From Candidatus Jettenia ecosi (lineage in GTDB: Bacteria > Planctomycetota > Brocadiia > Brocadiales > Brocadiaceae): 33,635 nucleotides of DNA. The notes beneath the pieces are model-generated. The model searched no databases and was not told the origin of the DNA. It worked only from the letters and a program-made list of their open reading frames with translations. Position numbers and translations under genes: made by a program. Of this stretch, positions 2 to 7,993 are shown piece by piece. Numbering within the stretch: position 1 is the stretch's first letter; every line of letters starts with the position of its first letter. The stretch spans positions 1 to 33,635 of the forward strand of contig SULG01000032.1 of the NCBI GenBank assembly GCA_005524015.1, read 5' to 3'.

Positions 2-1123
2 CACCATCAGGTAGTAAACGAGTATATTCCAAGAGTATTGGATCGGGTCAATTCTCACTTGAAACAAAAGGCTGGCGAGGGGATTTTTGATCTGTTTAAA
101 CCGCGCCAAACTGAGGCAATCAAACGTCGTCCATTCCGAAGCGCAGTTTATGCTGGAAATGATGATAAGGAAATATTAATTGGTACGATAATCCCCTATT
201 CCAAACATCCCCCGCTGAGGGAGTTCTTAACTTCATTGGTTAAGCATGCAGAAAACTGCCTTCGGGAGCTAAAAGATTACAAGGGCAGGCTGAGGGGTTA
301 TGTGGTAGAACCTGAATTAAAAGCAATTATTGATGACTTTATCGCTATTTTGGCTCAGCATATCACTCCGCCACCTCCTAAGGCAAAGGTTGTGGTAGAC
401 CTGGTAAGGGTTAAGGAGTTGGCCAAGGAATCAGATCAAGTTAGGGATATGCTGATCATAAGGGATGCTGCGATAGCCGATATTCAAAAGCCGTTAGCAG
501 AAGAACCAATAGCCGCCAGTGCTACGGGTATTACCCAGTCAGAAGGTGCGCTTGCGCACTTACTTACCGATCTGGATCAGGTTAGTAAAATCCTCTATGA
601 ACTTGATAAAGACGAGAAGCGTTTAATAGAGGTGTTGTTAAAGAATACTTGTAAGATGAAGGATAATCTTATCACCGAGGCATTACCTGGTGTTTTGGTG
701 GAACAGTTGGTTGACCATATCAACAGCCTTTCTCTTGAATTATTGGGGGATGTTTTGATTGTCAGTGAAAATGGAACTAAAATTGTGACTGATGATTACC
801 GGGATGAACTGGATCATTTGTATACTGCCAATAAAGACATATTTACTGTATTGGTGCACAATGACTTGCCTGAAGAATGGACCAAGTTTAGATCAAGATT
901 AGCCCATTATCAACTTAGCCTGCTTAAGGCTCTGGTAGAACAGGATGATCCTACAAGAGAGATTTGCCGGATAGCTCATGAAAATGTAACTATGCCGGAG
1001 TTACTGCTTGATTCCATAAATGAGCTGGCACTGGATACCGTGGGCGATATCATTATCGAAACCATCTCCATTCCTCCGGTAATCGAAGCAGAGGATTTGG
1101 AGATGGTGCGCAGAATAATTTAA
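2..1123 (+). CDS. TerB_N/TerB_C-type protein, C-terminal part (5' end outside window)
   Basis: The frame is open from the first bases, reading HHQVVNEYIPRVL before the TTG at 38, so this is the C-terminal ~374 residues of a longer protein; the TTG is not a real start. The final third holds two copies of a ~70-residue unit (nt ~596-808 and ~899-1111). Each has a leucine-rich helix, then a [D/L]xINxLxLExxGD-like core (DHINSLSLELLGD and DSINELALDTVGD). This resembles the C-terminal winged-helix-like region of TerB_C proteins, which usually sit beside a BrxD-like ATPase and an Lhr-like helicase, as here. The next gene begins 21 bp downstream behind a GAGG ribosome site, so the three form an operon. 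Family assignment rests on remembered motif shape and context and is moderate. The inferred role is a structural or sensor part of a defence complex. Confidence 0.6.
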   Translation, partial: HHQVVNEYIPRVLDRVNSHLKQKAGEGIFDLFKPRQTEAIKRRPFRSAVYAGNDDKEILIGTIIPYSKHPPLREFLTSLVKHAENCLRELKDYKGRLRGYVVEPELKAIIDDFIAILAQHITPPPPKAKVVVDLVRVKELAKESDQVRDMLIIRDAAIADIQKPLAEEPIAASATGITQSEGALAHLLTDLDQVSKILYELDKDEKRLIEVLLKNTCKMKDNLITEALPGVLVEQLVDHINSLSLELLGDVLIVSENGTKIVTDDYRDELDHLYTANKDIFTVLVHNDLPEEWTKFRSRLAHYQLSLLKALVEQDDPTREICRIAHENVTMPELLLDSINELALDTVGDIIIETISIPPVIEAEDLEMVRRII

Positions 1124-1144
1124 CCTAAATGAGCGAGGTAATAT

Positions 1145-2473
1145 ATGGCTAGTCTGAAGATACCAAAGAGAATTTCTATGGCCTTACTGAATTCCCTGGG
1201 TGCGGGCGTAGTTCCGAGGGTGGGTTTGGAGTATATCGCCGTGGGTCGGAAGAACGAGACGGCAGCCGTATTGCGGGATTTGGCGAATGTAGCCGAAGGT
1301 GGGGCCGTTTTTCGCTTTATCGTGGGACGCTATGGTTCAGGGAAAAGCTTTATGCTGCAATTACTCCGAAACTATGCTATGGAACGGAATTTTGTAGTGG
1401 CGGATGCGGATTTATCCCCTGAACGCAGGTTGACCGGCACCAACGGCCAGGGAGTAGCTACCTATCGGGAGATGATGAAAAATCTGGCTACCAAGACTCG
1501 GGCTGATGGTGGGGCGTTGGTTTCCATTTTAGAGCGCTGGATTTCCGGTATTGCTGCTGAGGTGATAAAAGAGGCTGGTATTTCCTCCAATGATGGCCGT
1601 TTTAATGATGCAGTAGAAGCCAAGATAATGGAAGTCGTGCATAATATGGAGGGTATGGTACATGGATTTGACTTTGCCACTGTACTCAGCACCTATTGGC
1701 GCGGTCATCGGCTGGGCAATGACGACCTGAAGGCCTCCGCCCTTCGCTGGCTGCGGGGTGAATTTACCACCAAAACCGAGGCACATTCTGCCTTGGGGGT
1801 GCGGGTAATAATAGACGATGAAAGCTGGTACGATTATATCAAAATATTGGCCAAATTTGTTTCTGATATTGGATATAAAGGATTGTTGGTTATCATTGAC
1901 GAGGCGGTTAATTTATACAAGATTACCAATACCGTTTCCCGTCAGAACAATTACGAAAAGCTGCTCACCGTATTTAACGATACCATGCAGGGCAAAGCGG
2001 AGCGTCTGGGTATCCTGATGGCGGGAACGCCCCAGTTTATAGAGGACTCAAGGCGGGGGCTGTACAGCTATGAAGCCTTGCGCTCTAGGTTAGCGGAAAG
2101 CCGCTTTGTAAAAGACGGCCTGCAGGATATGGCCGGGCCGATTATCCGGCTTAATGTGTTGACCCATGAGGAAATCTTTGTCCTGCTCACCCGATTATCC
2201 AATGTCCATACCGCCCATTATGGATACGAGAACGCTCTCAAGTCTGAGGAACTTCAGGATTTTATGCAGGAAATTGTAAACCGGTTAGGGGCAGAGGAGT
2301 TACTGACCCCGCGGGAGGTGGTACGCGACTTTATTACTATCTTAAATATCCTTTTCCAAAATAAAGAGGTCTCCTTTAGCCAGCTAGTGCATGGTGTCAA
2401 TTTCCAGCCCACCAAGGCCGGTAAAGACCCGGAGGTGGATGAGGATGGTAAATTTGCCGAAATTTCTTTATGA
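1145..2473 (+). CDS. brxD: BrxD-like P-loop ATPase of BREX/Ter-type defence module
   Basis: This 442-residue ATPase carries Walker A GRYGSGKS at residues 61-68, Walker B LLVIIDEA at 248-255 and a sensor stretch LGILMAGTPQFIEDSRRG at about 288-305. That last stretch, followed by LYSYEALRSRL, is characteristic of the BrxD family (DUF2791 P-loop proteins) of type 2 BREX and related helicase-linked loci. The family is thought to drive DNA- or complex-remodelling during phage defence; the substrate is not shown by the sequence. It sits 21 bp after the TerB_C-type gene, and its TGA overlaps the helicase ATG by 4 bp (ATGA), which implies translational coupling. The DNA looks more GC-rich than the housekeeping genes to the right, suggesting acquisition by transfer. 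The brxD symbol is by family resemblance: no pglX or pglZ is in the window. Confidence 0.75.
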   Translation: MASLKIPKRISMALLNSLGAGVVPRVGLEYIAVGRKNETAAVLRDLANVAEGGAVFRFIVGRYGSGKSFMLQLLRNYAMERNFVVADADLSPERRLTGTNGQGVATYREMMKNLATKTRADGGALVSILERWISGIAAEVIKEAGISSNDGRFNDAVEAKIMEVVHNMEGMVHGFDFATVLSTYWRGHRLGNDDLKASALRWLRGEFTTKTEAHSALGVRVIIDDESWYDYIKILAKFVSDIGYKGLLVIIDEAVNLYKITNTVSRQNNYEKLLTVFNDTMQGKAERLGILMAGTPQFIEDSRRGLYSYEALRSRLAESRFVKDGLQDMAGPIIRLNVLTHEEIFVLLTRLSNVHTAHYGYENALKSEELQDFMQEIVNRLGAEELLTPREVVRDFITILNILFQNKEVSFSQLVHGVNFQPTKAGKDPEVDEDGKFAEISL

Positions 2474-4662
2474 ATGACAATCCTTTTTACAGATTAGCCC
2501 CTTTTATCCAGGAGTATATATATGTTCATGGTTGGACGGAATTAAGAGCGGTTCAGGTAGAAGCCTGCCGCATAATGTTTGATACAGATCATCATCTGCT
2601 GCTGGCAACCGGCACCGCCTCAGGAAAAACCGAGGCCGCCTTCCTGCCGGTACTGACCCTCCTGCATGAAGCTCCTTCCACCACACTTGGGGTACTGTAT
2701 ATCGGCCCTATCAAGGCCTTAATCAATGACCAATTTCTCAGGTTAAACGATTTACTAAAGGAAGCCCATTTCCCGGTTTGGCATTGGCATGGGGATGTAT
2801 CCCAAAATCATAAGCAAAAGCTGCTAAAAGAACCAAGGGGCATGCTGCAAATTACCCCCGAATCATTGGAAAGTCTTCTAATTAACAGGAGTACCGGATT
2901 GGTCCGACTGTTTGGCGATTTACGGTTTATCATTGTTGATGAGGTACATGCCTTTATGGGCTCAGACCGGGGCCGGCAGGTGCTCTGTCAATTATCTAGG
3001 CTGTCCAGATTCATACAAACCAAACCGCGCAGAATCGGCTTGTCGGCTACCCTCGGCGATTACACCTTGGCGGAGGACTGGCTGCGCTCAGGAACGGAGA
3101 GGCAGATTATCACCCCCAATGTTAAAGTCGGTCAGCAGAAGATAAGGCTGGCGATAGAACATTTTTATAAGTCATCGGAATCATCACCGAAAGATAAGAA
3201 CGATAAATTACCATTTGACCCTTATTATAAGTATATTTTCGATAACAGTAAGCAACGGAAGTGTCTAATCTTTGCTAACAACCTCGCCGAAACGGAATCC
3301 GTTACAGCGTCTTTACGCCAGATCGCCGAAATAGAGCGGCTGCCGGATATCTACCATGTCCACCATGGCAGCATATCTGCCGCCTTAAGGGAATCCGCCG
3401 AGTCAGCCATGCGTGATGCCTTAACTCCCTCGGTAGTAGCGGCTACAATTACCTTGGAGCTAGGGATTGATATTGGTCAGCTGGAGCGGATTATCCAGTT
3501 AAACGCTCCCTTTTCGGTAGCCAGCTTTCTGCAAAGATTGGGACGATCCGGCAGAAGGGGTAATCCCTCTGAGATGTGGTTTGTCTGCCCAGAAGAGAAA
3601 CTTACTGGAAAAGAACCGCTTCCTGAACAGATTCCCTGGGGACTTCTTCAAGCTATAGCCATTATTCAATTGTACCTTGATGAAAGGTGGATTGAGCCGA
3701 TAAAACCTGTAAAGTATCCCTTCAGCCTGCTGTATCATCAAACCATGAGCATTCTGGCAGCTATGGGTGAACTTACCCCGCCATCTCTGGCTCAACGGGT
3801 ACTTACCCTCCCCCCATTCAGAGAAATATCTTCAGATGATTTTAAGGAATTGCTGGTACATTTGATTAAGATTGACCACATACAGAAAACCGAAGAGGGT
3901 GGGCTAATTATTGGATTAGCTGGTGAACAGATTGTCAGAAATTTCAGATTTTACGCGGTCTTTCAGGATAACGATGAATATAACGTCAAGGAAGATTCTA
4001 AAGAAATTGGCAGTATAATTTATCCCCCGCCTTTGGGGGAACGATTTGCATTAGCCGGACGAACTTGGGAGGTATTGGAAATTGATTTAAAAAGCAAGGT
4101 GATTTTTGTAAAGCTGGTCAAGGGCAGGGCGACTGTATCCTGGCGTGGCAGCGGTGGAGATATTCATACCAGAATCCTGAAATGTATACGAGAGGTTCTC
4201 TTTGAGGATGTCCAGTATAACTATTTGCAGAACCAGGCACAGGAGCGTCTTAAGGAAGCCCGATGGCTAGCCCAGAATGCAGGATTGGATCGGGACCATA
4301 TATTTCACTTGGGAGGCGATACCTATTGCATCTTCCCCTGGATGGGCAGTGTTCCTTTTCGGACATTAGAAAGATATCTCCATCATCTTTGTAAGAGTTC
4401 ATCAGTTTTTAAAATCATTGATAGATACGCCCCCTACTACTTTACAATTAAAATAGAGCAAGGAGGAGCAAAGGATATCCATAAAATAATTATGGATATG
4501 GGTGAATTAACGCCTTCATCTGAGATTCTGCTTGATTCAGAGGAAACCCCTCGATTCCAGAAATATGACGAGTTTATTCCTCCAAATCTGTTACGAAAAG
4601 CGTACCTCACTGATTATCTTAATTTTAAAGAATTACAGGAAATAGTTAGGGTTTGGCGCTAA
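2470..4662 (+). CDS. Lhr/BrxHI-like DEAD/DEAH-box superfamily II helicase
   Basis: This 730-residue SF2 helicase has motif I ATGTASGKTE (46-55), TPESLE (129-134), motif II DEVH (157-160), motif III SAT (192-194), motif V TLELGIDIG (328-336) and motif VI QRLGRSGRRG (355-364). A ~350-residue C-terminal extension follows the helicase core, as in Lhr-type and BrxHI helicases. The expected activity is ATP-driven translocation or unwinding of DNA. The start is fixed by the ATGA overlap with the brxD-like stop, so the two are co-translated. It is the last gene of the left operon, and 500 bp of gene-poor DNA follows. The core is intact, with no missing motif. Bacterial lhr itself is the alternative, but the BrxD-like partner favours the defence-associated clade. 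Confidence 0.85.
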   Translation: MNDNPFYRLAPFIQEYIYVHGWTELRAVQVEACRIMFDTDHHLLLATGTASGKTEAAFLPVLTLLHEAPSTTLGVLYIGPIKALINDQFLRLNDLLKEAHFPVWHWHGDVSQNHKQKLLKEPRGMLQITPESLESLLINRSTGLVRLFGDLRFIIVDEVHAFMGSDRGRQVLCQLSRLSRFIQTKPRRIGLSATLGDYTLAEDWLRSGTERQIITPNVKVGQQKIRLAIEHFYKSSESSPKDKNDKLPFDPYYKYIFDNSKQRKCLIFANNLAETESVTASLRQIAEIERLPDIYHVHHGSISAALRESAESAMRDALTPSVVAATITLELGIDIGQLERIIQLNAPFSVASFLQRLGRSGRRGNPSEMWFVCPEEKLTGKEPLPEQIPWGLLQAIAIIQLYLDERWIEPIKPVKYPFSLLYHQTMSILAAMGELTPPSLAQRVLTLPPFREISSDDFKELLVHLIKIDHIQKTEEGGLIIGLAGEQIVRNFRFYAVFQDNDEYNVKEDSKEIGSIIYPPPLGERFALAGRTWEVLEIDLKSKVIFVKLVKGRATVSWRGSGGDIHTRILKCIREVLFEDVQYNYLQNQAQERLKEARWLAQNAGLDRDHIFHLGGDTYCIFPWMGSVPFRTLERYLHHLCKSSSVFKIIDRYAPYYFTIKIEQGGAKDIHKIIMDMGELTPSSEILLDSEETPRFQKYDEFIPPNLLRKAYLTDYLNFKELQEIVRVWR

Positions 4663-5164
4663 AAATATACAATGTATTTGAGGAATACGATGCAACTCGC
4701 CTTGGTTTTTGACAGGGAACATCCCGTTCGTTCAACTGCTGATGTGCGCACATGGTGGACAAGCAAACCGTGTGAGGACTTTAAAAGAACACATATCAAT
4801 TTTACCGTTGTTAACAGATCGAAAGATCTCTTGTTCGTTTGACTTCGCTATCGTAATAGGTCTTCGATGATGTGTGACATACAGAACAAACGGTTTTTTA
4901 ACGGCGTTCTGGTTTGATTACTCTTGCATGCAGATCACCATAAACGCCGATTAATTTGCTTCTCATAGGGAAGAAATATCTCAAAATGGAGTAAAATTGT
5001 TCATTTGGTATGGTCTGAGGGCTAAGCCCTGTCCTACATTTTGATAAGAGATAGTAAGGCGCCGAAGGCTTCATTTATTATCTTATTAAGGATACTAGCA
5101 AACTTCGAAACTCTTCCACCTGCCCATGTAAAGCCCTTCGTGTCAACTGTCTTTTAAGCTTTCC
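4663..5164. other. 502-bp gene-poor gap between convergent units
   Basis: This separates the defence operon (plus) from the Mgm101-like gene (minus). It holds a perfect 12-bp palindrome, ATGTGCGCACAT at 4742-4753; a short AGGGCT-A-AGCCCT hairpin near 5017-5029; and an imperfect long inverted repeat near 5041-5095. A 50-codon ORF at 4690-4842 has an ATG but no ribosome site and no recognisable motif. The region may be decayed mobile or accessory DNA, but no transposase or attachment site can be shown. Confidence 0.4.
5041..5095 (-). terminator. imperfect hairpin downstream of the Mgm101-like gene
   Basis: The left arm (TGATAAGAGATAGTAA) and right arm (TTATTATCTTATTA) are near-complementary and enclose a GC-rich centre with a second small stem (GCC-GAA-GGC). 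It lies 70-120 bp past the stop of the minus-strand gene and could end that transcript. There is no clear T-tract, so it may instead be a repeat remnant. Confidence 0.25.
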
Positions 5165-5992
5165 TTATTTAACAGTTGTCAGCAGCGCTTTTTTCTTTCC
5201 ATCTTTGGCTCTCGTAACAAGTTCTTTGTCTCTGGGCGCATAGGTATCCAGACATTTATGATGCTTGCTCCAGATATTTTTCAAATGTGGCAGCGATTCA
5301 GCGCCCTGGATTTTCCTCACAAGCTCAGATGGTGTGAGGGGTTTAATCGTATCTGTATCGGTATAACTCGCAGAATTTACCGTTTTGTAAGAGGTAACTT
5401 CTTTTTTTCCCTCTAATTGAGTCAGAGGTTTTTTTCTCCAGAACTTTCTTCTCTTGCCATGTTTATCGGTATCCCAATACGATTCTGCATATCTCTCTTT
5501 CCAGGCATTCACAAATGATGGTTTCCATAACTCCAGGCTTATTCCTATGCCTTTACACAACCTCATCAGGGCGTTACTCTTCGCACCTTCACATGCATCA
5601 CTCCAACTCATATATGCATTATCCGGGTTATATTCCTGCTCTCCAATTGCAAATCCGGCCAACTTCCCCTGGATAATAAGATGAAAGCCCCACACAAGAT
5701 AATCTCCATTATGCTTGGGCATTCCCTGAGGTACAATTGCCCAATTAAGGCCGAAAGCCTCCTTGAGCCTTGCTACATATTCGACCCATGGCAAATAAAT
5801 CAGGCCATCGGGGCGAATTTCGATGTCTTGTTCGTTTACCGGTCTGAATAATGCTTGCTTCTGCTGTTCCGTAAGCGCAACTGTTCCACAGGTAGGAATG
5901 AGTTTCTCGATCTCTTTGTCAAAATCATTAAGTTGTATTAATTGTGTGTCACCTGTTTCAGGTGAAATATTTTCTTCAATTTTTTGAGTCAT
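5165..5992 (-). CDS. Mgm101-like Rad52-family single-strand annealing protein
   Basis: This 275-residue protein carries the Mgm101 core: PVNEQDIEIRPDGLIYLP (51-68), the EAFG segment (78-81), GEQEY (117-121), then CEGAKSNALMRLCKGIGI (134-151) followed by LELWKPSF (153-160). A basic Trp-containing stretch RRKFWRKK (181-188) matches the basic tail of yeast Mgm101. Mgm101 is a Rad52-related ring-forming ssDNA-binding and annealing protein of fungal mitochondria; related annealases occur in phages. A second helical segment (about 225-265) is typical of phage annealase tails. The start has a good ribosome site (AGGAGA, 8 nt before the ATG). The gene is 24 bp after a small unknown ORF on the same strand and converges on the defence operon. 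The likely role is homology-directed annealing of phage, plasmid or repair DNA. Assignment is by recalled motif identity. Confidence 0.8.
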   Translation of the reverse strand: MTQKIEENISPETGDTQLIQLNDFDKEIEKLIPTCGTVALTEQQKQALFRPVNEQDIEIRPDGLIYLPWVEYVARLKEAFGLNWAIVPQGMPKHNGDYLVWGFHLIIQGKLAGFAIGEQEYNPDNAYMSWSDACEGAKSNALMRLCKGIGISLELWKPSFVNAWKERYAESYWDTDKHGKRRKFWRKKPLTQLEGKKEVTSYKTVNSASYTDTDTIKPLTPSELVRKIQGAESLPHLKNIWSKHHKCLDTYAPRDKELVTRAKDGKKKALLTTVK

Positions 5993-6016
5993 GGTACGTA
6001 TCTCCTTACTTATTTT

Positions 6017-6271
6017 TTACTCCATTGAGTATTTCTTGTAATAAAACTCATTGATGTAGATCTCAACCTTAAATTTCCTATTTGGCGTTTTCAGAACTAT
6101 AATCCTGGTATTAACTTCCAAATTTGGATTTTGTGGATAATCATTATTTGTTATTGCCACAATTACTTTACCTCCAATTGTTATACAGGATTTGGTATTT
6201 TGAGAATTGGAATGATTCAACCAATTTCCTCTCATACACTTATAACAAAAATTATATAGGTATGGTTTCAT
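6017..6271 (-). CDS. small hypothetical protein upstream of the Mgm101-like gene
   Basis: This predicts an 84-residue protein with one CxxC (CYKCMRGNW, residues 9-17), a possible single metal or redox site, and a lysine- and tyrosine-rich C-terminal half with beta-strand character. No family is recognised. It precedes the Mgm101-like gene by 24 bp on the same strand, a normal operon spacing. The ribosome site is weak (AAAAAAG directly before the ATG). A plus-strand ORF overlaps it at 6124-6312 but looks like a chance reading of AT-rich DNA. The evidence that this is real is position and length only. Confidence 0.4.
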   Translation of the reverse strand: MKPYLYNFCYKCMRGNWLNHSNSQNTKSCITIGGKVIVAITNNDYPQNPNLEVNTRIIVLKTPNRKFKVEIYINEFYYKKYSME

Positions 6272-6385
6272 CTTTTTTCATAACATGCAGCAATACTGTT
6301 ATAGACAGATGAGGTGTGATAAATTTATTTTATAGAGTATTATCCTATAAAGACTTAGAGAATATAGGCAAATAATAAATAGTTA

Positions 6386-6414
6386 TTGAATGTGATAAGG
6401 GCATGTAGTAAAAT
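6386..6414 (+). promoter_or_regulatory. sigma70-like promoter for leuA
   Basis: TTGAAT (6386-6391) and TAAAAT (6409-6414) are separated by exactly 17 bp, about 48 bp upstream of the leuA ATG. This is prediction from consensus only. Confidence 0.45.
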
Positions 6415-6461
6415 TTATCGAATTCTACCAGGAATTAAACTTTTACTTATGAAAAATACTT

Positions 6462-7637
6462 ATGGCCAATAATATCATTATTTTCGATACGACCCTTCGT
6501 GATGGAGAACAGTCACCAGGCGCTAGTTTAGATATCAATGAAAAGGTCCAGATTGCCAGACAATTGGCTTTGTTACAGGTAAATGTTATTGAGGCAGGGT
6601 TTCCCGTATCGTCTCCGGGTGATTTTGAATCAGTTAAGAGGATTGCCCGGGAGGTCCGGGGGGTTTCTGTAGCAGGTCTTGCCCGCGCAGTTGAAAAGGA
6701 TATTGATAGTGCGGCGATGGCGCTCGAGAAAGCGGAGAAGCCACGAATCCATATATTTCTGGCGACTTCTGAAATACATAGAAAATATAAATTACTCAAG
6801 GCAAAGGAAGAAATTATCCATTTGGCAGTTAAGGCGGTCAAGTATGCCCGAAAGTATGTGGATGACATAGAGTTTTCACCTGAAGACGCATCGCGGACGG
6901 AACTGGATTTTCTTGTTCAGGTTGTAGAGGCTGTCATTGATGCTGGAGCAAAAACAGTCAATATTCCTGATACCGTGGGCTATGCTGTACCGGATCATTA
7001 TGCCGCTCTTATTCGTGGACTCAAAGAACATGTTAAAAACATTCATAAGGCAATAATCAGCGTACATTGCCATAACGATCTTGGACTTGCTGTGGCTAAT
7101 TCTCTGGCTGCTGTGAAGGCCGGCGCACAACAAGTGGAGTGCACTATCAATGGTATCGGTGAAAGGGCAGGGAATGCAGCCCTGGAAGAGATTGTTATGG
7201 CTCTTAAGACGAGGCAGGACTTTTACCATTGTTCCACGCGCATTGTTACTAAGGAGTTAATTGCTACCAGTAAATTAGTAAGTACTCTGACAGGGCTGAG
7301 AGTGCAGAGGAATAAAGCTATTGTCGGTGAAAATGCGTTTGCACATCAGTCGGGAGTACATCAGGATGGAGTACTCAAGGAGCGTACGACCTATGAGATT
7401 ATAAAACCGGAAGATGTTGGACATCTGAAAACCAGGCTTGTACTGGGGAAGCTATCAGGACGGCATGCCCTTAAAGAGCGAATAAAAGAGTTGGGATACG
7501 AGTTGTCGGAAGAAGAATTTGAGAGAGCTTTTAAGGAGTTCAAACATATTGCGGATAAAAAAAAGAGGTATTTGATGAGGATATTGGGGCTATTATTGGT
7601 ATCGAGAAAATGGAAGTTCCTGCTATTTTCCAATTAG
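6462..7637 (+). CDS. leuA: 2-isopropylmalate synthase, catalytic part (frame 1 of a split leuA)
   Basis: LeuA condenses acetyl-CoA with 2-oxoisovalerate, the first committed step of leucine synthesis. The catalytic TIM barrel is complete: [12 protein letters not shown] (9-20), VHCHNDLG (201-208) with the metal-binding His pair, [10 protein letters not shown] (231-240) and HQSGVHQDG (295-303). After codon 365 (Asp) the frame enters AAA AAA AAG and then reads an unrelated tail, ending at 7637. The family sequence ([19 protein letters not shown]) continues in the -1 frame, and the regulatory domain lies in the overlapping ORF 7610-7993. Either the run lost one A (mutation or sequencing error), or the ribosome or polymerase slips on A8. 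No strong ribosome site is seen at the ATG; a promoter-like pair lies just upstream. The next pathway genes to the right are aromatic, not leucine, genes. Confidence 0.9.
7557..7565 (+). other. A8G slippery run at the leuA frame break
   Basis: Eight A's then G, read as AAA AAA AAG in the zero frame, contain the -1 slippery heptamer A-AAA-AAG known from E. coli dnaX. Slipping back one base gives GAG GTA TTT GAT (E V F D), exactly the expected LeuA continuation. An AAGGAG sequence lies about 20 nt upstream (7533-7538), further than in dnaX. No obvious stimulatory hairpin was seen just downstream. Confidence 0.55.
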
Positions 7638-7993
7638 AAGGTCTTAGCATCAGTTGCGGACCGAATACCGTGCCAACTGCAGGGGTGCGGCTCAAATTGC
7701 AGGATGGTAGTACCGTGGATAATGCTACAATCGGCGACGGTCCCATTGATGCACTTTTCAAGGCTATTGATCTATCGACAGGAATTCCTGGTAAATTACA
7801 GGATTATAATATTCGAGCTGTTACCAGCGGAAAAGATGCTATGGGTGAGGTCTATGTAAATATTGATGTGAATGGTAAATCCATAGCAGGACGTGCGGTA
7901 AGTACCGATATTATTGAAGCCAGTGCAAAGGCTTATCTGCATGCGATTAATAAAGCAGCAGCAAATAACCCAAAATATACGATTCATCCTTAG
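7610..7993 (+). CDS. leuA: 2-isopropylmalate synthase, C-terminal regulatory domain (frame 2 of split leuA)
   Basis: This frame holds the LeuA dimer/allosteric domain, which binds leucine for feedback inhibition. It is recognisable from [17 protein letters not shown] through the conserved [13 protein letters not shown], then an [14 protein letters not shown]-like stretch and ending NPKYTIHP. It overlaps the first LeuA frame by 28 bp and is in the -1 frame relative to it. The ATG at 7610 is an internal Met of the full protein, with no ribosome site, so independent initiation is unlikely. Joined by a -1 shift at 7557-7565, the two frames give about 510 residues, the normal LeuA length. The domain itself shows no internal damage, which argues against old decay. 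Confidence 0.85.

Follow-up and report, generated by a model that had tools for sequence, protein, structure and literature searches.

The window analysed here, a 33,635-bp contig of Candidatus Jettenia ecosi, carries on its minus strand an mgm101 gene that is probably a phage-type member of the Mgm101 family of single-strand annealing proteins (SSAPs), captured by the bacterial chromosome and now employed by the host in annealing-type repair. Three options had been offered in the original prediction, which was made from the sequence: a prophage relic, a domesticated recombinase or a part of a defence island. The second accounts best for the data, as the gene occupies a fixed TPR-leuA locus and shows a within-genus pN/pS of 0.10-0.18. 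With its insertion site defined, it is a clean example of how an SSAP is domesticated in bacteria. Mgm101 is seen here to recur in uncultured phages, often together with an MGME1-like nuclease, and has apparently been domesticated by anammox bacteria.

The mgm101 gene and its product

The gene and its signals are as follows.

5165-5992, minus strand: mgm101-like gene, encoding a 275-aa single-strand annealing protein (Pfam, AF2 model, Foldseek, purifying selection)
5426-5887, minus strand: Mgm101p core domain, residues 36-189, with the invariant DGLIYLP, EGAKSNALMR-CK and ELW-P-F and the basic/Trp stretch KRRKFWRKK
6002-6007, minus strand: Shine-Dalgarno sequence AAGGAG of mgm101, read in the sequence and identical in the sister genomes G001 and G002

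The 275-aa ORF starts with ATG and contains the motifs DIEIRPDGLIYLP, GEQEY, CEGAKSNALMR, GISLELWKPSF and KRRKFWRKK, so that every family motif claimed beforehand was found in it, as was the claimed ribosome site. The proposed profile search placed the protein inside the family: Pfam Mgm101p (PF06420) matches with E=3.8e-41 (140.9 bits, cut-off 27), positions 10-162 of the 170 profile positions being covered and no second Pfam family being present. In a phmmer comparison with all PDB chains, yeast Mgm101 was the sole credible sequence match (E=7.1e-25; 9yi6 and four further entries). The PHROGs profiles, those of the known phage SSAP families included, gave no significant match to the window protein. 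All 44 aligned proteins of the family (44/44) match Pfam Mgm101p, and one of the 44 relatives weakly matches Erf (PHROG). The gene product is thus genuinely related to Mgm101, the DNA-annealing protein of yeast mitochondria.

Predicted structure and functional residues

The AlphaFold (AF2) model, for which the input was the window protein with 44 aligned relatives from the loci only, has a mean pLDDT of 85.5, the core blocks lying mostly at 93-98. Its elements follow one another as helix 69-80, strands 84-95, 98-107 and 110-120, and helix 130-148, forming the beta-beta-beta-alpha core of the Rad52 type, and the nearest solved structure is that of Mgm101. The three top-ranked Foldseek matches are cryo-EM structures of yeast Mgm101 (9yi9, 9yi7 and 9yi6; E 3e-16 to 1e-14, 9yi9 at 3.4e-16) with TM-scores of 0.76-0.82 by target length, and RAD52 comes next; the structural comparison that had been proposed thus agrees with the assignment to the family. 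The Rad52-type superfamily is also common to the phage SSAPs Sak3/DUF1071, Rad52/22, Erf and RecT/Redbeta. Against viral proteins, Foldseek returned one closer match followed by Sak3, Rad52 and Erf; the best viral structural match is the UniProt protein A0A5Q2WBM1 (BFVD; E 3e-17, 32% identity).

The window protein shares with yeast Mgm101 (PF06420; PDB 9yi6-9yia) the Pfam domain, the predicted fold and 37% identity over 146 aa, but it has an additional C-terminal helical tail (residues 221-274), its gene lies on a bacterial chromosome, and no mitochondrial targeting is expected. The description of the protein as a full-length Mgm101 holds for the core and fails for the N- and C-terminal tails, which are unlike those of yeast. 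Twelve positions of yeast Mgm101 discussed in PMC5176325 and PMC3823998, from which the roles of the yeast residues were also taken, were compared. Seven of the twelve are identical (L121, Y139, F153, C217, K218, W257 and K260), three are changed conservatively (R259 to K, R252 to K and K253 to R) and two non-conservatively (C216 to Leu and K251 to Gly), the triad K251-R252-K253 reading G-K-R. Among the residues essential in yeast (F153, C217, K218, W257, R259 and K251-R252-K253) most are thus identical or conservatively replaced, the departures, with the neighbouring C216, being C216 to Leu, KRK to GKR in the triad and R259 to K. Because of the Leu at C216 and the G-K-R triad, the affinity of the window protein for ssDNA could differ from that of the yeast protein.

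Insertion history and selection

The genus of the window strain is represented by three genomes (G001, G002 and the window genome, which were compared for selection), and the sister genomes include Candidatus Loosdrechtia aerotolerans (G005) and Candidatus Brocadia sp. (G028 and G032). The features of the locus in the window are listed below.

5129-6461: segment collinear with the sister genomes G001 and G002, the homology ending at about 5129 at a strain-specific Shango island
6017-6271, minus strand: 84-aa ORF upstream of mgm101, probably not a functional conserved gene (in-frame TGA in G002, pN/pS)
6377-6385: AAATAGTTA, right-hand copy of the ~9-bp duplication flanking the mgm101 insert, identified from empty and filled sites
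6386-6414, plus strand: promoter-like TTGAAT-17-TAAAAT of leuA, lying immediately next to the promoter of the TPR gene in mgm101-free genomes
6462-7993, plus strand: leuA, 2-isopropylmalate synthase, the conserved flanking gene, frameshifted (frames 6462-7637 and 7610-7993)

In G001, G002 and G005 mgm101 is flanked by leuA-aroDE-aroK on one side and by a TPR gene on the other; the window genome has kept the leuA side, while its TPR gene is on a separate contig (C127). The gene is, as predicted, a chromosomal bacterial copy, inserted between two housekeeping genes. Seven other genomes of the family have TPR and leuA as direct divergent neighbours with no mgm101 between them, and in such mgm101-free genomes the two divergent promoters adjoin (...TGTCAAATAGTTATTGAATG...). 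With the insert in place, as in G001 and G002, TGTCAAATAGTTA closes the left flank and AAATAGTTATTGAATG opens the right one, a duplication of ~9 bp that sits in AT-rich DNA; G005 has the identical duplication pattern with two substitutions. The left copy adjoins the TPR gene and is therefore on contig C127 in the window genome. In the LeuA tree the two mgm101-carrying genera (g1+g4) are monophyletic (support 89/84), and G012, a congener of G005, has both flanks and lacks mgm101. The simplest history read from these sequences is that one DNA segment with a phage-type mgm101 entered the site between the two divergent promoters, those of TPR and leuA, duplicating ~9 bp of the target, in an ancestor shared by the two Brocadiaceae genera before they split, and was lost in at least one descendant (G012); that the event was an insertion rather than a deletion at the leuA-TPR site rests on parsimony. 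The absence of mgm101 from most of the family, including the congener of G005, implies that it is dispensable.

The gene is under strong purifying selection. Within the genus the copies differ by 16-23 synonymous and 9-13 nonsynonymous changes (pN/pS 0.10-0.18), and a neutral gene would show so few of the latter with a P of 7e-6 to 7e-10. Between the genus and G005, where the synonymous sites are saturated, dN/dS is about 0.05. The features of a domesticated gene, namely a fixed locus, vertical inheritance and purifying selection, are all present. The 84-aa ORF differs in this respect: it is a real frame in the window genome, but in G002 an in-frame TGA interrupts it and in G005 no more than a fragment of it is left, and its pN/pS of 0.41-0.64 does not depart significantly from neutrality. 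The interruption, the fragment and the neutral-like ratio argue that it is not a dedicated partner of mgm101, and the small partner gene that had been claimed is given up.

It is improbable that mgm101 is a decaying relic of a prophage or mobile element, functionless in the host. Such a relic would sit, as the window gene does, without partner genes beside it and next to a decaying ORF, and relatives in Brocadia sp. are found on mobile elements (L010). However, the pN/pS values (P down to 7e-10) and the low ratio towards G005 largely refute decay, and the gene is intact, at one common locus, in 3/3 genomes of the window genus and in G005; the relic proposed earlier is contradicted to the extent that it means a decaying gene. 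That mgm101 belongs to a still active small mobile element, with the annealer serving the transposition or replication of the element itself, is even harder to credit. The compact 1.7-kb insert with its ~9-bp target duplication and the location of mgm101 relatives on mobile elements would suit such an element, yet the insert lacks both a transposase and an integrase and shows no clear inverted repeats at its ends, both genera inherit one common insertion, and the window genome contains a single copy.

The window leuA is split into frames of 391 and 127 aa, while the sister genomes have a single frame of 510 aa; the frameshift is an assembly error or a recent mutation, possibly tied to the arrival of the Shango island. 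In G013, G018, G024 and G030 (L042, L032, L046 and L043, respectively) the leuA match contains one in-frame stop each.

The neighbouring Shango operon

Downstream of mgm101 in the window lies an operon (2-4662, plus strand) in convergent orientation.

2-1123, plus strand: sngA of Shango, TerB-C domain, N-terminus off the contig (PADLOC SngA 2.9e-49; Pfam TerB_C)
1145-2473, plus strand: sngB of Shango, BrxC/D-type ATPase (PADLOC SngB 2.6e-197 vs BrxD 1.2e-53)
2470-4662, plus strand: sngC of Shango, DEAD/Lhr-type helicase (PADLOC SngC 1e-254)

Shango is an anti-phage system of TerB, ATPase and helicase genes (PMC10250203), and the operon carries TerB, BrxC/D-like ATPase and helicase genes as described there. 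The operon had been taken for a BrxD/helicase operon; PADLOC identifies it as Shango sngABC. A BREX identity was rejected, since the SngB match far exceeds the BrxD match and the NCBIfam BrxD score of 182 bits is below the cut-off of 350. A Shango operon is thus present in an anammox bacterium, where the contig end removes the N-terminus of sngA.

An association of mgm101 with Shango as a component of a defence island, for example in host DNA repair or in sensing phage recombination, is highly improbable. sngC and mgm101 are convergent and ~500 bp apart in the window genome, but none of the five other anammox copies (0/5) has Shango alongside, TPR or mobile-element genes being found there instead, and a PADLOC scan of the window Mgm101 protein gave no match. 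The window and G001 remain collinear as far as ~5129, a little beyond the mgm101 stop, where the Shango island begins; since homology to the sister genomes breaks exactly between the island and mgm101, the island is a later, strain-specific arrival. No recurrent adjacency of mgm101 and Shango was found in unrelated genomes. The survey of neighbours in related genomes that had been suggested thus came out in two ways, the defence neighbours failing to recur and the TPR-leuA locus recurring, and the assignment of mgm101 to a defence island does not stand. Shango is a strain-specific neighbour with no functional link to mgm101, the adjacency is a coincidence, and the case shows that a gene's position beside a defence island can be misleading.

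Distribution of the family in bacteria and viruses

In bacteria mgm101 is rare. Of 392 genomes sampled from the host phylum, 5 have it, all in the family of the window bacterium; of 301 sampled genomes of the phylum of an Anaerolineae copy, 1 has it, this one being the centre genome itself; and it is in none of the 14 control genomes. Alignment-guided scans located mgm101 in the Anaerolineae MAG, where it lies beside ArdC-like and RadC genes, and in a Psychracetigena MAG. The Brocadia copy L010 (G028:C133) is accompanied by a primase/helicase, a sliding-clamp-like protein and DUF932, with transposase-like genes downstream, and sits apparently on a mobile element.

The claimed link to phages is borne out by relatives that the alignment-guided scans located in 37 IMG/VR viral contigs. 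Terminase PF03237 was present in 8 of 28 viral records and PF03354 in none of the viral records. Neither the INPHARED phages (tblastn with the window protein and two phage copies) nor the PLSDB plasmids (tblastn with the window protein and a single copy from phages) gave a match. The phages that carry the family are uncultured ones. A survey of the SSAPs of Firmicutes and their phages distinguished seven families, Mgm101 not being among them (PMC8093625). That bacteria have captured SSAPs from phages is established in the case of other families (PMC8987985).

The trees, which are unrooted and include one eukaryotic Mgm101 (that of yeast, on a long branch), separate a clade I, with all anammox copies, the two copies from MAGs and six distinct ones from phages, from a clade II with the other phage copies. 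The window protein falls in the all-prokaryotic clade of 14 (support 100/100), apart from yeast. This bears on a possible horizontal acquisition of the window gene from a eukaryote, by way of a fungal or protist mitochondrial gene, which the treatment of Mgm101 as eukaryotic by the Pfam models and the literature (PMC5176325) would suggest; with 59% identity to phage-contig copies against 37% to yeast, and with the all-prokaryotic clade, it is the least credible of the alternatives, although the AU test, at p=0.07 for yeast within clade I, does not firmly reject that placement.

A nuclease gene downstream of phage mgm101

ORFs on both strands of each whole locus were searched in 40 mobile or viral loci with a locally built nuclease profile. 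A PD-(D/E)XK nuclease is encoded directly downstream of mgm101 in 20/40 loci (two of the 20 being duplicates) and nowhere else in those loci; in all of the 20 it shares the strand of mgm101 and lies no more than 750 bp away, usually adjacent to or overlapping it. Its pattern, G..H-D-DxK-Q, is that of RecB-type PD-(D/E)XK enzymes. The best PDB sequence match of the phage nuclease is MGME1 (E=3.8e-13), which also ranked first with the AlphaFold model. Examples of the nucleases closest to human mitochondrial MGME1 are encoded at L013:8951-9766 and L076:6966-7793, besides those of 18 other loci. A resemblance of MGME1 to RecE and lambda exonuclease was known before (PMC6237815), so that this likeness does not in itself demonstrate a special tie to Mgm101.

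Among the genes near phage mgm101 the exonuclease families dominate (phrog_298 in 12/97), and Gam-like, NinB and DnaB genes also occur, a neighbourhood of exonuclease, Gam-like and NinB genes being similar to that of the phage SSAP families. The phage relatives with their downstream nuclease (20/40 loci) resemble the lambda Red/RecET modules; they differ in that the nuclease is nearer to mitochondrial MGME1 than to lambda exonuclease. Phage Mgm101 and its nuclease could be tried in recombineering as a new pair of annealase and nuclease. Unlike these modules, the chromosomal anammox mgm101 has no nuclease partner alongside: no SSAP-type exonuclease is found beside the window gene, whose neighbours are leuA and Shango. 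A phage exonuclease partner elsewhere in the genome was also sought and rejected, the only candidates being weak phrog_298 matches of Cas4 size that occur in mgm101-free genomes too.

Proposed role in the host

We propose that the captured protein most likely acts in host DNA repair as a ring- or filament-forming single-strand annealer, without a dedicated exonuclease. Mgm101 would form rings or helical filaments, bind ssDNA that is probably coated with SSB, and pair complementary strands without RecA, and the host may use it in the annealing-type repair of breaks or of stalled or damaged forks. Host nucleases would supply the ssDNA, since no exonuclease partner of the phage type was retained. 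A replacement of RecO by mgm101 was considered and ruled out, RecO being present in 8/8 genomes checked; mgm101 would thus add to the standard annealing mediator rather than replace it, and an extra annealer besides RecO is not obviously needed.

Relation to eukaryotic Mgm101

The most interesting part of these results lies outside the window, in the phage Mgm101 family with its frequent downstream MGME1-like nuclease. In reviews Mgm101 figures as a protein of eukaryotes (PMC5176325). For eukaryotic Rad52 a phage origin has already been proposed (PMC8987985). The position of yeast in the trees suggests a phage origin for the eukaryotic mitochondrial Mgm101 as well. At even odds, in our estimate, Mgm101 would be at root a phage annealase family paired with an MGME1-like nuclease, the eukaryotic protein deriving from a clade II phage gene near IMGVR_UViG_3300021061_000099 and the anammox domestication in clade I being a separate and later event. 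MGME1 itself may come from a phage source common with Mgm101. Since the AU test leaves yeast with clade I at p=0.07, the phage-to-yeast direction is put forward as a hypothesis, and through the phage family it becomes testable where a recombination protein of mitochondria came from.

Yeast Mgm101 is placed in clade II beside L070 (support 94/74 and 94/77) and with L083 (98/92 and 97/98), and the L070 protein is 53% identical to it over 151 aa. The contig of L070 (IMGVR_UViG_3300021061_000099, with L070, L135 and L136) encodes a portal, a terminase, a virion protein and two integrases, and belongs to a tailed phage.
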